A stretch of 64,000 nucleotides of DNA from Pirellulales bacterium. GTDB lineage: Bacteria; Planctomycetota; Planctomycetia; Pirellulales; JALHPA01. The notes below the pieces were generated by a model. The model worked only from the letters and a program-made list of their open reading frames with translations, was not told the DNA's origin and made no database searches. Both the position numbers and the translations under genes were made by a program. This document shows positions 2,951 to 57,683 of this stretch, piece by piece. Position 1 is the stretch's first letter. Each line of letters opens with the position of its first letter. Location of the stretch: the NCBI GenBank assembly GCA_033762255.1, contig JANRLT010000006.1, positions 62,001 through 126,000 on the forward strand. Direction: 5' to 3'.

Positions 2951-4264
2951 TTACTGCGCTTTCCAGCGATAAGCGGTTAAGGCCAGCAATTCTCGTACGA
3001 AGAGTTGGTCGCCGCTTATGGCCAGGTGAGCCCACGTGTCGGTTTGGCCAACTTTGACCGAGCCTAGCAACTCAAATTCGCGGGGATTAGCCCGCACTAA
3101 ATAGAGGGTGCCATTGGCACTGAGGCATAAAATTCTATCCCCCTGGGCGATCAAGCTGGAATATTTGCCCATCGGCTGGGAGGTCCAGGTGCGTTCTCCG
3201 GTTTGCAAATTGACGCATCCCAGGCGTTCATTTTGCAGATGGATATAGAGGTGGTCGCCAATCACCACGGGCGTTGACATGTATCCCTTGGCATTATTGC
3301 TCCAGGTTTCATTGAGGCGCCATTGGTCTGATTCTTTTTCCACGGAAAACAGCCAGGATTTGTTTTGATAACTGCTGGTAAAAATGGTATCGCCGCGCAC
3401 GACGGGGGTTAAAATGTTCATGCCACGAAAAGCGGGGATTTTTTGCGACCAAAGCACTTTTCCCTGCTCAAGTTCGACGCCGGACAAGTTTTCGCGGCCT
3501 TGCACCAGTAATTGTTGCTGACCGGCCAGTGTCGCGATGACCGGCGAGGAAAAAGCGGAACCATACATGCCGCCCCCATCCTCCAGCGTTCGCCAGAGAA
3601 TTTTTCCGGTTACTTTATCCAGTTTGACGGTGGATGCGCCGGCTTGGACATAGACTGCCTGATCCACGACCAACGGGGACGAGACAAACCCAAAGGCGGG
3701 AAGCGGGGACTTTAGCTCTTTGACAAAATCAACGCGCCATTGTTCCTCGCCGTTGGCCGCGTTGAGGCAAACCAGCACATCCCGCATGCCCGCAACATAG
3801 ACCCGTTCGCCATCATAAGCGGGGGTCGAGCGAATCCAACTGCCATTGGACGCGGCAAAGAAAGGGACGGACATGGCCCCTTCCCATTCCGCCTGCCACC
3901 GTTGCTTACCAGTCTGACGGTCCAAAGCCTGCACGACTTCGCGTTTTTTTTCCCGGGTCTCGGTGGTAATCACCACATCATCATAGACAATTGGTCCCGA
4001 ATAGCTGGACTCCAGGGGGACAGACCACAACTTTTCCAGGGAAGTGTCATTCAAAACAGTGGGCCAAGTAGGTCCCCCAACTTGGCCATCCCGCGTGGGG
4101 CCGCGCCACTGTGGCCAATCAGGTGCCGCAGGCTGGCCTACCACGGCCGCAGCTTGGTTTTCTTCCGCAATGACGCACCGTGGCCCGTGTAAATTAAATA
4201 GTCCGGCGCAGATTAGCAGAAAAAGGGAGGCAAATTCTGGCCGCAAGAAGGTAAAGAAATGCAT
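2951..4264 (-). CDS. secreted PQQ-binding-like beta-propeller protein
   Basis: 437 residues from the ATG at 4264. An upstream in-frame ATG at 4327 would put 21 residues in front of the signal peptide, so the shorter start (MHFFTFLRPEF, followed by a hydrophobic run) is preferred. The mature part begins with DWPQWRGPTRDG, the hallmark opening of planctomycete PQQ-like beta-propellers, followed by repeated blades with VxALDRQTGKQRWQ, VCLNAANGEEQW and VKLDKVTGKILW motifs. The fold is the eight-bladed BamB/quinoprotein type, but no dehydrogenase catalytic residues are apparent, so a binding or scaffold role is more likely than an enzyme. Similar proteins occur at 6387 and 57684 in this window. 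Confidence 0.75.
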   Translation of the reverse strand: MHFFTFLRPEFASLFLLICAGLFNLHGPRCVIAEENQAAAVVGQPAAPDWPQWRGPTRDGQVGGPTWPTVLNDTSLEKLWSVPLESSYSGPIVYDDVVITTETREKKREVVQALDRQTGKQRWQAEWEGAMSVPFFAASNGSWIRSTPAYDGERVYVAGMRDVLVCLNAANGEEQWRVDFVKELKSPLPAFGFVSSPLVVDQAVYVQAGASTVKLDKVTGKILWRTLEDGGGMYGSAFSSPVIATLAGQQQLLVQGRENLSGVELEQGKVLWSQKIPAFRGMNILTPVVRGDTIFTSSYQNKSWLFSVEKESDQWRLNETWSNNAKGYMSTPVVIGDHLYIHLQNERLGCVNLQTGERTWTSQPMGKYSSLIAQGDRILCLSANGTLYLVRANPREFELLGSVKVGQTDTWAHLAISGDQLFVRELLALTAYRWKAQ

Positions 4265-4422
4265 GTAAGTCAGATACTTTCGCGGGCAAAGATGAATTCT
4301 GGCCGGGGAACAGTCGGACGCCATCATTAGTAAATCATACTAAGCGGAACAATGCTAGAGTAAGAGCGCTTATTGCCAACACGCCTCCTTGGCCAATTTG
4401 CCACGCCATTGTAAGGGCATGG

Positions 4423-4544
4423 GCTTTGACAACGATTCGATTTCGGATGAGTCGTAGGGCGCTAGCCACGGTTGGAGCGGTAAAAATCGTGGGCTGCCCC
4501 CAGCGGCAGATTTGCCTAACTCGCATCTTTAACTTTGATACAGC
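4423..4544. repeat. MITE-like palindromic element, family A copy 1
   Basis: About 122 bp, an imperfect full-length inverted repeat closely matching the copy at 17885-18008. Shared blocks include CAACGATTCG, TCGGATGAG, GTAGGGCGCTAGCC, a central hairpin around ACGGTTGGAGCGG, and TTTGCCTAACTCG. A 63-codon ORF across it is just the translation of the repeat. The gap from 4328 to 4759 holds nothing else recognised. Confidence 0.75.
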
Positions 4545-4759
4545 ACGAGGGTAATTTTTTGAAGAAGTGCCGACATCAGTGCAATGAGGATAGATTGTCC
4601 ATAATTAAGCCGAGTACGGTATATACCAATTTATCCCTAGCAAATGCGGTTTAACCATTGATGCCAATAAAATTACATTGGTCCGACTGCGATGCTCCGC
4701 GAAATACTGGCCGCGCACACAGCAACTCACCAAATTCAGGCCGTAAATGGTCCTAAGCG

Positions 4760-17738: not shown

Positions 17739-17884
17739 TCCCACTTCGACTGGCTACCCCGCGACGCATTCTCTCACCGGGTAGCCAACAGCGCTGCCCG
17801 CCCCCCAAAAATCATTGCACGGCCTGCCACGGTTGCTTTGGCAAGAATGTCGCTCCGTAGGATCGCCATCGTTATAGAAGTAGT

Positions 17885-18008
17885 GTTTTGTCAACGATTC
17901 GTTTTCGGATGAGCCGTAGGGCGCTAGCCCACGGTTTGAGCGGCAAAAACCGTGGGCTAACGCCCAGCGGCTGATCTGCCTAACTCGAATCTTTAACTGT
18001 GACAAAGC
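17885..18008. repeat. MITE-like palindromic element, family A copy 2 (best copy)
   Basis: 124 bp. The left end GTTTTGTCAACGATTCG matches the inverted right end (GCTTTGTCA... then GATTCG). Inside, the arms continue with GAGCCGTAGGGCGCTAGCCC versus CAGCCGCTGGGCGTTAGCCC and meet at ACGGTTT. The whole element can fold into one long stem. It lies in the 17739-18212 gap, where I see nothing else but one C-rich scrap. Confidence 0.8.
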
Positions 18009-18212
18009 ACCAGTGTTCATGAGCAGTATTTATCCCTCGGGGTCGGGAGTCGTGGGCAGTGCAAACGTCTTTGGCTAAGCAGCCTGATACGCCCAGGACT
18101 CCTGTCCCCCTCATGGTTGTCAGGCCGGAGGGGGACGGGAATCCTTGGCGGCAATCCTGTGCAAATGACAGCGCCATCCGCGTTCAAAGCTTGGTTCTGC
18201 CGACTGAGCGCG

Positions 18213-19079: not shown

Positions 19080-20480
19080 GGTGGTCCGTTACGGCAGAAC
19101 ATCTAGTATTCAGATGCCTGTAAATTACCAAACTCACCATATTCTGTCTAAACCATGCTCGTAGTCAAGAGTTTTCTACTAAATCCTGGTCTCTCCTTTT
19201 GTATGCTTTCTAGCTAAACGCAGCACGGCTAGCAATTTGTGAAGGCACCCAGCATTTATGGGTTATTTTCGCATGACGCAACCGCGTTGCGGTAGAAATA
19301 CAGCGGCGGAACACGTTCCGCCCTACGGGGCTATCGGAAGAAGGGGAGGGGGCGAATTCAAAAGCAGGAATGTCGAAAGCAGAATTTCACCGCGTAGCGG
19401 TTTCGTATCGTAGCCGTGGGTGTCAACCCACGGTTTGGATAAGCCAGAAAAGTCTAGCCGCGTAGCGGCGAAGTCGTTTTTGGTTGGCGTTTATTTGTGG
19501 CTAGGAGAAGGTACATCCGTCACCGCAATGAATGTAGCAGGCACCGTCCCCGGTGCCGTGTCATTCCGTCGCCGCTGCGCGGCTCTGCATCCTGCCCATG
19601 CTGCGATCCGGGGGTTTGCACCCCGGCTAGCATCTTGACGCCGCTGCGCGGCTAACCGAGTTATTTTGCTTACCCCGGGTAGTCGCTGCGCGGCAACCCG
19701 GGGCTAAGTGCTGTAACCGCTGCGCGGTAGGAAGGCATTCAACCAAAAACTAAATGCCATCCACCAAAAACTAGCAGACACGCGCTCCGCTGCGCGTCGC
19801 GGCTTACCAAATTCTTGTACGGCGACGAAACGTCGCCGCTACGGGAGGATCGGCGAGTACAACTTGCCAGCTACGAAGAATACGGCGACGAAACGTCGCC
19901 ACTACGGGGAGATCGGCGACGCCGTCTGGATGTCTTCTCCGTGCTCCTCGGTATTTTCTTCGTAACTCCGTGATAAACGAATTATCCGGGTCTCTCAATT
20001 CTCGCTCCACGTGGCGGCTAAACAAATACTAGAAGTGCAGCGGCGGAACACGTTTCGCCCTCCGAGACTCAATTTTGTTACGTCACCCGTTGCCGCCAGT
20101 AATCTGGCAAATTCCGCAAAACGATGCTGGCGAATTTGGGCTTTATGCGCAATCTTCCTCATTTGATTTTGCATTACCCGGCCAATTTGCTTGAAATTAG
20201 GCCACGCCCTCTGGTAAAATAAGGGGAGGAAAATCGAATTGCCATGCGGTAAATCGGTTTTCGCCATACAACCGCTACCAGGATAGCATCCTGTGGCCTG
20301 TGCCGCTTGGTCGAGCGTGGGGTTGATTCCCCCGTTCCGCTGCTAGGCTGGCAGGGTATCTCGTGGACTGGGAAGAACTGCCCATATGGCATCTTCCCCG
20401 CGGTTGAAGGAGTTAATCAGTCCGGCAATAGGTTTACCGTGGGATCCTCTCACTCCGTGAGAGTGGAACTAAGATGAACC
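19080..20480. repeat. gene-free repeat field
   Basis: About 1.4 kb with no credible gene. It carries CGCATGACGCAACCGCG (about 19272) and GTAGTCGCTGCGCGGCAACC (about 19678), both of which recur inverted at 54400-54535. It also carries two copies of CGGCGACGAAACGTCGCC (about 19819 and 19891, 72 bp apart), two CGGCGGAACACGTT segments (about 19312 and 20040) and a family G copy (19930-19980). Short ORFs across it on both strands are repeat translations. Confidence 0.7.
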
Positions 20481-46420: not shown

Positions 46421-47515
46421 ATGCACTTTTCTGAGATGTGGCGTTGCATGACCCCCTATCGTCTCCCCGGATCGCTGCGACTTTTCGCCTGGATCTGCCT
46501 GTTCGCGGGGATGCTGGCGGGCTGCCGTGCCAATACCCTTAATTCGCGCTACCAGCTCCCCGGCGATCAACCCTCCGCCGTGGCCCGGGAACAGGACTAT
46601 GTCCAATTGCCAGAGTACCGGCTGGAACCGCCGGATATTATTTTGATCGACGCCCTGCGAATCGTTCCGCGGGAGCCATTTAGGATCGAGGCGCTTGATA
46701 TCTTGTACGTGCAGGTGGAAGGCACCTTTGAGGACCAACCCATCAACGGGCAATTTAGTGTGTCGCCCAATGGGGCGATTGACCTGGGACCGGCTTATGG
46801 CCGGGTAAAAGTGGCGGGTCTGAGCATTGACGAAGCTATTCAAGAAGTCGAAAAGTTTCTCAGCCGCACCTTGCGCGAACCGCAAGTCAGCATCACACTT
46901 TTGCTGTCGGGGGGACAGGCCCAAATTGCCGGTCAGCGCCTGGTTGGTCCCGATGGCTATGTCAATCTGGGGACCTACGGGATGGTCTATGTCGCGGGAT
47001 CAACCATCTCCGAGGCCCAGGAGAAAATCACGGAGCATTTGCAGCAGTATCTGCAAAACCCCATCATTTCGGTGGATATCTTTGCGTACAACAGCAAGGT
47101 TTACTACGTTGTTTCCGAAGGGGCGGGCTCCGGGGACAATTTACAGCGATTTCCCATCACCGGAAAAGAGACCGTCCTGGATGCCATCGCCAATGTCGGC
47201 GGGTTGTCCCGGTTTTCGGATAAGCGAATTTGGATTGCCCGTCCCGCTCCGAGCGGACAGGAATGCGACCAGGTATTACCCGTCCAATGGAACGACATCG
47301 TCCGCGGCGGACAAACAGCCACCAATTACCAGTTAATGCCCGGCGACCGGGTATTTATTGCCGAAGAGCATATGTCGGCGGTCGATTCCCGCTTGACTCA
47401 ACTCTTTGACCCACTCGAACGGATTCTGGGCGTTACCATCCTAGGGTCCAATGTCGTCGCCACGGGACAACGCTTTCCAGGAGGGTTGCAAGGACAAAAC
47501 AACCCGGGTTTCTAG
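46421..47515 (+). CDS. Wza-like polysaccharide export lipoprotein
   Basis: 364 residues. A lipobox LFAGMLAGC (Cys35) makes it a lipoprotein; the start could instead be ATG 46436 or 46448. The Poly_export domain follows (YRLEPPDIILIDAL, then IEALDILYVQVEG, FSVSPNGAIDLGPAYGRVKVAGLSIDEA), with two SLBB-like segments, the second beginning AGQRLVGPDGYVNLGTYGMVYVAGSTISEAQ. The final part (RFPITGKETVLDAIANVGGL, RGGQTATNYQLMPGDRVFIAEE) closes the standard order. It should form the outer-membrane exit for exopolysaccharide and work with the Wzc-like protein encoded divergently. Its stop codon touches the family A element. Confidence 0.88.
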   Translation: MHFSEMWRCMTPYRLPGSLRLFAWICLFAGMLAGCRANTLNSRYQLPGDQPSAVAREQDYVQLPEYRLEPPDIILIDALRIVPREPFRIEALDILYVQVEGTFEDQPINGQFSVSPNGAIDLGPAYGRVKVAGLSIDEAIQEVEKFLSRTLREPQVSITLLLSGGQAQIAGQRLVGPDGYVNLGTYGMVYVAGSTISEAQEKITEHLQQYLQNPIISVDIFAYNSKVYYVVSEGAGSGDNLQRFPITGKETVLDAIANVGGLSRFSDKRIWIARPAPSGQECDQVLPVQWNDIVRGGQTATNYQLMPGDRVFIAEEHMSAVDSRLTQLFDPLERILGVTILGSNVVATGQRFPGGLQGQNNPGF

Positions 47516-47622
47516 CGCTGTGTTAAGTTGAAAATGTGAGTTTGGCAGATCAACCTCGGGGCGCGGGCCTACGGTTTTTGCCGCTCCAACCGTGTGGCTA
47601 GGACCCTACGGCTCAGGCAACA
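47515..47622. repeat. MITE-like element, family A copy 4 (inverted, one arm shortened)
   Basis: Reverse-oriented relative of 17885-18008: GGCAGATCAACC, ACGGTTTTTGCCGCTCC and CCGTGTGGCTAGGACCCTACGG. The outermost left-arm part is lost. It begins at the last base of the Wza-like stop codon. The 47623-47854 remainder shows nothing recognised. Confidence 0.65.
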
Positions 47623-47854
47623 CGATATGTTGATACGGCACTAGGAGCGGCGCATGAGGCCGGTGATCCAGCGGCTGCCATTGCCAGAAAACGTTCAATT
47701 GAAGGCAGATGAGTTGCTTTTCACTGCGTAACGAGCCGGGGACTGGGCATGAAGCCCGTATGACACCACTCGCCAACGAACTGTAACATTTACATAAGAT
47801 TATTGACGCCACGCGTACCATACGCCGGCGGCGTTTCCTTTGAGGGAAATTTGT

Positions 47855-57035: not shown

Positions 57036-57170
57036 GCGGCACGCGGAAAAGGGACGGTTCAAATCGTGTGACGATTTTACGGGAAACAGGAGCCAATTTC
57101 ATGATAGTCAACCCAATAGCTTTTGACGAATGGAAAATGGATGATCGCGGAGAGTGGACCGTCCATACAA

Positions 57171-57236
57171 TCAGCCGCAGGGCGCTAGCCCACGGTTGGA
57201 GCGGTAAGAAAACCGTGGGCGAGTTGATCGGCAGGG
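57171..57236. repeat. family A core, copy 3
   Basis: TCAGCCGCAGGGCGCTAGCC, CACGGTTGGAGCGG and AAAACCGTGGGC, the central hairpin of the MITE-like element without its outer arms. It lies inside a short ORF (57068-57478) that is repeat translation. Confidence 0.6.
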
Positions 57237-57260
57237 CCGGAGACGCAATTGTTATTTGTA

Positions 57261-57336
57261 AACAGGAGGAAGCAGAGAGAGCAGAGGGGGGAAAACTGCA
57301 AATAGTATTCCTCCGCTGTCTCTGCTACCTCCTGTT
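57261..57336. repeat. palindromic repeat family D, copy 1
   Basis: Arms AACAGGAGGAAGCAGAGAGA... and ...TGTCTCTGCTACCTCCTGTT are imperfect inverts flanking a short loop; other copies are at 59105-59205 and 60429-60545. An ACAAAAGGAAGCGAAGAG segment (57393) resembles the flank of the other copies, inverted. The rest of 57036-57683 carries CACCGGAACTTGTTCCGGTG (57430), another palindrome. Confidence 0.7.
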
Positions 57337-57683
57337 AAAAAATGGATTGCGGTGTTTTTGTGAACAGGAGCAAGCAGAGGGAGCAGAGTTAAACAAAAGG
57401 AAGCGAAGAGAACGAAGGGGGAGTTGCACCGGAACTTGTTCCGGTGTGCGCGGCACTAGAAGCCTACGGGGTGGATAGGTAAACAATCAACAAAGGGCCT
57501 CCAACCGCTCTGCGGCCCTAGGAATTTGTTACGTACTTGTTTTTTACCTGGCTGATTGACTTGCCTTGACCGAGCAAATAAATTATTAACATATTTACGA
57601 GTAGCTGGCGGTACCGTCACTCGTTCGCGCAGTGTGCGGGCAACAATTTTCTAAAATTTTGGCATAACCCGGGAGGACCGCTC

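Follow-up and report, generated by a model that had tools for sequence, protein, structure and literature searches.

The palindrome at positions 17880-18013 of the window, the whole 64,000-nucleotide stretch of Pirellulales bacterium DNA that was analysed, is very probably an IS630-derived MITE that carries a REP-like palindrome as its cargo. In this element, the outer arms would be served in trans by an IS630 transposase, the centre would come from a separate repeat of the host, and the copies would now be decaying.

The element on the forward strand consists of a left shell arm with the terminal inverted repeat (17880-17910, consensus CTAGTGCTTTGTCAACGATTCGTTTTCGGAT), a REP-like palindromic core (17911-17975, GAGCCGTAGGGCGCTAGCCCACGGTTTGAGCGGCAAAAACCGTGGGCTAACGCCCAGCGGCTGAT) that was also found shell-free elsewhere in the genome, and a right shell arm with the terminal inverted repeat (17976-18013), both arms being defined by the alignment of the genome copies. 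A sequence-only reading had placed a 124-bp palindrome at 17885-18008; the palindrome was real, but its true ends lie further out, at about 134 bp, as the aligned genome copies agree out to a CTAG on both sides. This copy was 96% identical to the consensus and contained GTAG and CCAG in place of the two terminal CTAGs. The stretch 17885-18008 aligned with its own reverse complement in blastn, and the element folded with -36.6 kcal/mol (DNA parameters; z -7.4 against 200 shuffles), in agreement with the self-complementary arms and single stem that had been proposed.

Four copies had been counted in the window. Searching the window with 17885-18008 by blastn returned 4425-4544 (87%, E 1e-36), 47517-47615 on the minus strand (81%, E 2e-20) and the core at 57170-57220 (88%, E 1e-12). 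The first two were confirmed as MITE copies with full limits of 4418-4549 (forward strand, 88% identity to the consensus) and 47512-47644 (minus strand, 79% identity, both end CTAGs intact), while the forward-strand repeat at 57170-57220 was a core without shell arms, so that the window holds three MITE copies and one free core rather than four equivalent copies. The copy at 4418-4549 lies on the upstream side of a PQQ_2 (BamB-like) gene (2951-4327, minus strand), whose start is about 90 bp away. The copy at 47512-47644 does touch a gene stop, as had been noticed: the TAG (47513-47515) that ends the forward-strand Poly_export gene (46421-47515) is that of the element's terminal CTAG, so that an insertion there leaves a stop codon in place. 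The free core is located inside a 136-aa open reading frame (57068-57478) with no Pfam match. A faint core-like match was also present at 19412-19436 (E 0.07), perhaps the remnant of a REP-like repeat.

The family was not confined to the window. Searching its own genome, a 5.47-Mb draft of 72 contigs, with the element gave 62 matching stretches and at least about 40 loci (40 of the 115 candidates scored), and further copies were found in other genomes; the ends were consistent among copies, as the earlier reading had supposed. The consensus was a near-complete palindrome with 14-bp perfect inverted ends, CTAGTGCTTTGTCA...TGACAAAGCACTAG, and contained no gene. Divergence from it averaged 14.5% among the 25 fuller copies (range 4% to 23%), which indicates that the family is old. 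The common ends of the copies stopped at CTAG, which was retained on both sides in the better-preserved copies; since CTAG is itself palindromic, a 2-bp TA duplication and a 4-bp duplication look the same. When empty sites were sought among the collected loci with joined flanks, every match was either the query locus or a tandem copy. In G439, locus L218 contained two tandem copies, 1403-1515 and 1512-1623, with one CTAG in common; such tandem 111-bp-type copies with a single common CTAG were seen in two related closed genomes (L218, 1403-1623, in G439 and L214 in G351). Upstream of position 1290 in L108, inspection by eye suggested that the start of an integrase-like frame may have been cut at a MITE-end-like GGCACAGTTAAAGATT.

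Partner elements were sought through IS630-family transposases (Pfam DDE_3), followed by inspection of their flanks, and three elements with matching ends were found in other Planctomycetota genomes. L238 (G351) is a 1.23-kb IS630-family element with the ends CTAGTGCTCCGTCA and CTAGTGCTGTGTCA and with matches to DDE_3 and NF033545, its second protein being an IS630 transposase above the NCBIfam cut-off. L123 (G026) has the 5′ end CTAGTGCTTTGGCA and a broken 3′ end, and L241 (G319) is a broken element with the ends CTAGTGGTCTGTCA and CTAGTGGTCTGGTC. Their transposases were 59-69% identical to each other; by reading frame, the first frames of the three shared 59-68% identity and the second frames of L238 and L123 shared 69%, with the two frames of L238 and L123 overlapping at ACGCTTAAAAAAACGG. 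By our estimate, about 0.07 end matches of such quality are expected by chance per 3 kb, both strands together, so both ends of one element would seldom match so well by chance. According to the passage of PMC2170065 that cites Tenzen and Ohtsubo 1991, IS630 prefers the TA in 5′-CTAG-3′. These IS630-like ends in three Planctomycetota elements, together with the known CTAG target, argue that the element is an IS630-derived MITE.

The transposase with matching ends that the sequence-only reading had suggested looking for thus exists in G351, G026 and G319, but none was found in the MITE's own genome. The one DDE_3 locus there, on contig C14, has the ends CTAGAGCGCTTTTCA, which are of another type, and was therefore rejected as the partner; these ends fit the second shell of G028 described below. 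This 1.06-kb IS630 element (L173, C14:1-1062) has its transposase split over two frames. IS630 elements of the C14 type also lie at the contig ends of C5, C26, C40, C47 and C48, which implies further copies and probably a break of the assembly at these places.

The core has the form GAGCCG...CGGTT / AACCG...CGGCTGAT. In the own genome, 50 of the 98 matches to a core half lay outside MITE loci, and many of the free cores consisted of a pair of units in inverted orientation (ATCAGCCG...CGGTT), arranged as in REP dimers. The GTAG or CGTC tag of the REP super-families (PMC3733652) was absent from the core units, which begin with ATCAGCCG or GAGCCG and end with CGGTT, and the core is accordingly called REP-like and not a super-family member. 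Ten Y1 transposase matches were found in the genome, two of which (L102 and L107) were genes flanked by the core-related hairpin AGCCGTGGGCGCAAGCCCACGG. The Y1 genes of L101, L103 and L104 each had private flanking inverted repeats, that is, differing pairs of REP and transposase in one genome. The earlier guess of a MITE or a structured REP-like element thus holds on both counts, with arms that match IS630 ends and a REP-like centre that also stands free.

Comparison of shell elements from different genomes showed that the outer arms and the centres behave as separate modules. Among twelve such elements, the outer arms had a mean identity of 69% against 32% for random 28-mers, a value inflated because most of the elements compared had been picked by an exact match of 15 to 19 bases at one of their ends, although the opposite ends, which played no part in the choice, matched too. 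The centres had a mean identity of 35% against 30% for random 68-mers, and high identity was seen only among four elements that have the REP-like core in common, those of the own genome, G046 and JAHWKJ and one from G009. Other centres in the same shell were CCACTGCTGGCTTGTCCAGCAGTG in G009, CGAGCCGGAAGCGTAAGCGACGG in CAMAUE and SIAQ, two MAGs in which this palindrome was also present outside the shell, GGGTGCCACTGGCTCCGCCAGTG in JAFGFF, and GTCAGGAGTCAATTG in JANQJJ and JAEUIP; the centres of JADHUC, G319 and G439 were not strong palindromes. L198 contained two palindromes in tandem, and the shells of L183 (49 bp) and L217 (38 bp) were nearly empty. A further repeat, CAATGGCACTTAC...GTAAGTGCCATTG, splits the REP-like core of the MITE in L186 (4007-4275) and in L121. 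The REP-like core was also found in G028 inside a second CTAG-ended shell, CTAGAGCGCATTTCA (L143, L152 and L161), which held other centres in G012 (L147 and L162) and resembles the ends of the IS630 in the own genome and of IS630 elements in G439 and G319.

Matches in further genomes depended on the length of the end pattern. The long exact pattern gave nothing in the named genomes and, among 392 genomes of the phylum, matched the own genome only, and was thus too strict. With a 19-base pattern, the named genomes gave 23 matching stretches, almost all of which came from Planctomycetota MAGs, and a 15-base pattern matched 8 of the 392 phylum genomes, mostly of one genus (g46, several closed) that carries a 111-bp form. 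Among the relatives searched, G046 and G009 carried the shell of the window's element. A Saccharibacillus match to the 19-base pattern was dismissed as chance, as it had no partner end and one or two chance hits are expected; five matches in viral contigs, with no partner end at two mismatches or fewer, were likewise taken as chance, and two of the viral contig loci, L229 and L230, showed a candidate partner end at 313 bp with three mismatches. Plasmids contained no match to the window's MITE or to the G439 form.

The matching ends and the target sequence suggest how the element would have spread: an IS630-family transposase acting in trans would recognise the inverted ends CTAGTGCTTTGTCA, excise the element and paste it at the TA of CTAG sites through the genome. 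The centre would derive from a separate dispersed palindromic host repeat, probably a REP dimer, which an IS200-like (Y1, RAYT-type) transposase may have moved into the tip of the MITE palindrome. With the partner lost, the copies in the own genome would now be decaying, with no selection for the fold. Since the same ends occur with differing palindromic middles across planctomycete genomes, the two kinds of repeat seem to move jointly, and it is quite possible, if short of probable, that this is a phylum-wide two-way hitchhiking in Planctomycetota. IS630-type MITE shells with constant ends would serve as landing pads whose centres are repeatedly filled by the REP-like repeat of the host; the IS630 transposase would then disperse the REPs, and the MITE would gain a strong hairpin. 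Several observations fit this picture: one shell type holds four or more unrelated self-complementary centres, a single centre occurs in two types of shell, one genome contains two different centres, one element has two centres in tandem, and the shells of 38 and 49 bp are nearly empty.

Three other explanations were weighed against the IS630-derived MITE. The element could belong to an IS5- or IS701-type transposon with a 4-bp CTAG duplication instead of a TA duplication by IS630, because IS5-type elements target CTAG (YTAR) as well, CTAG or YTAA is duplicated by MITEPsy1 (PMC3189936), and the flanks of L007 read ATAG on both sides, favouring a 4-bp duplication. We consider this unlikely, as three IS630 elements have this end type and a search of the own genome for DDE_5 (IS701), one of the two transposase types concerned, found no gene. 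It is very improbable that an IS200-like tyrosine transposase spread all 134 bp of the palindrome as a single REP/BIME-like unit, of which the outer arms would be no more than the flanks: the core is REP-like, and several of the ten Y1 matches in the genome have their own flanking inverted repeats, but the outer arms match IS630 ends and remain the same from one genome to the next, whereas the core varies.

The strong fold, the contact with the gene end at 47515 and the position of the 17880-18013 copy between convergent genes would also suit a conserved structured RNA or a transcription-related hairpin under selection. The decay of the family speaks against it. In the 25 copies, 248 pairs were broken against 249.9 +/- 5.1 in shuffled data, and compensatory changes numbered 12 against 11.3 +/- 2.9, so the pairs broke at the shuffled rate with no compensatory excess. 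As the whole window also gave no Rfam match, the structural-RNA reading was rejected as hardly credible, and no RNA gene accounts for the conservation.

MITEs and REPs are usually treated as separate repeat classes that are moved by unrelated enzymes (DDE and HUH, respectively). Here the same REP-like palindrome was found on its own as well as in an IS630-type shell and in another shell, and one shell was found with different palindromes by genome, which offers natural material for testing the target choice of REPs and their possible preference for landing at the tips of palindromes. For annotation, it is a warning that such 134-bp palindromes are composites and not RNA genes.

Of the known MITEs, RUP, ERIC and Correia elements come closest in kind. 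The RUP element of Streptococcus pneumoniae, a MITE of 107 bp that IS630-Spn1 presumably mobilises, resembles the present family in its IS630-type ends, TA target, non-coding sequence, intergenic location and about a hundred copies, but it differs in sequence and phylum, and no REP-like core is described for it in PMC2229807 and PMC2817692. ERIC, a 127-bp palindrome with TA ends, and Correia/NEMIS are likewise palindromic MITEs with TA at the ends, whereas their sequences are unrelated and no swappable REP-like centre is described for them in PMC2229807. REP dimers central in a longer palindrome were reported as GTAG-15 of Anabaena variabilis, where the palindrome ends in TA, and CGTC-1 of Halothiobacillus neapolitanus (Di Nocera 2013, PMC3733652); in the section of that paper dealing with them, the outer palindrome comes without a link to a transposon family or alternative centres, in contrast to the IS630-matching ends and swapped centres found here. 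The IS630 elements L238, L123 and L241 of other planctomycete genomes have the same CTAG-bounded end type but encode a transposase, with two overlapping frames where they are intact enough. In the open-licence literature, we found no prior description of a link between the outer palindrome and IS630 ends or of a phylum-wide exchange of centres in one shell. MITEs of such a kind and REP dimers inside palindromes are already known, while the IS630-end link and the swapping of centres in one shell throughout the phylum appear, within that literature, to be new.
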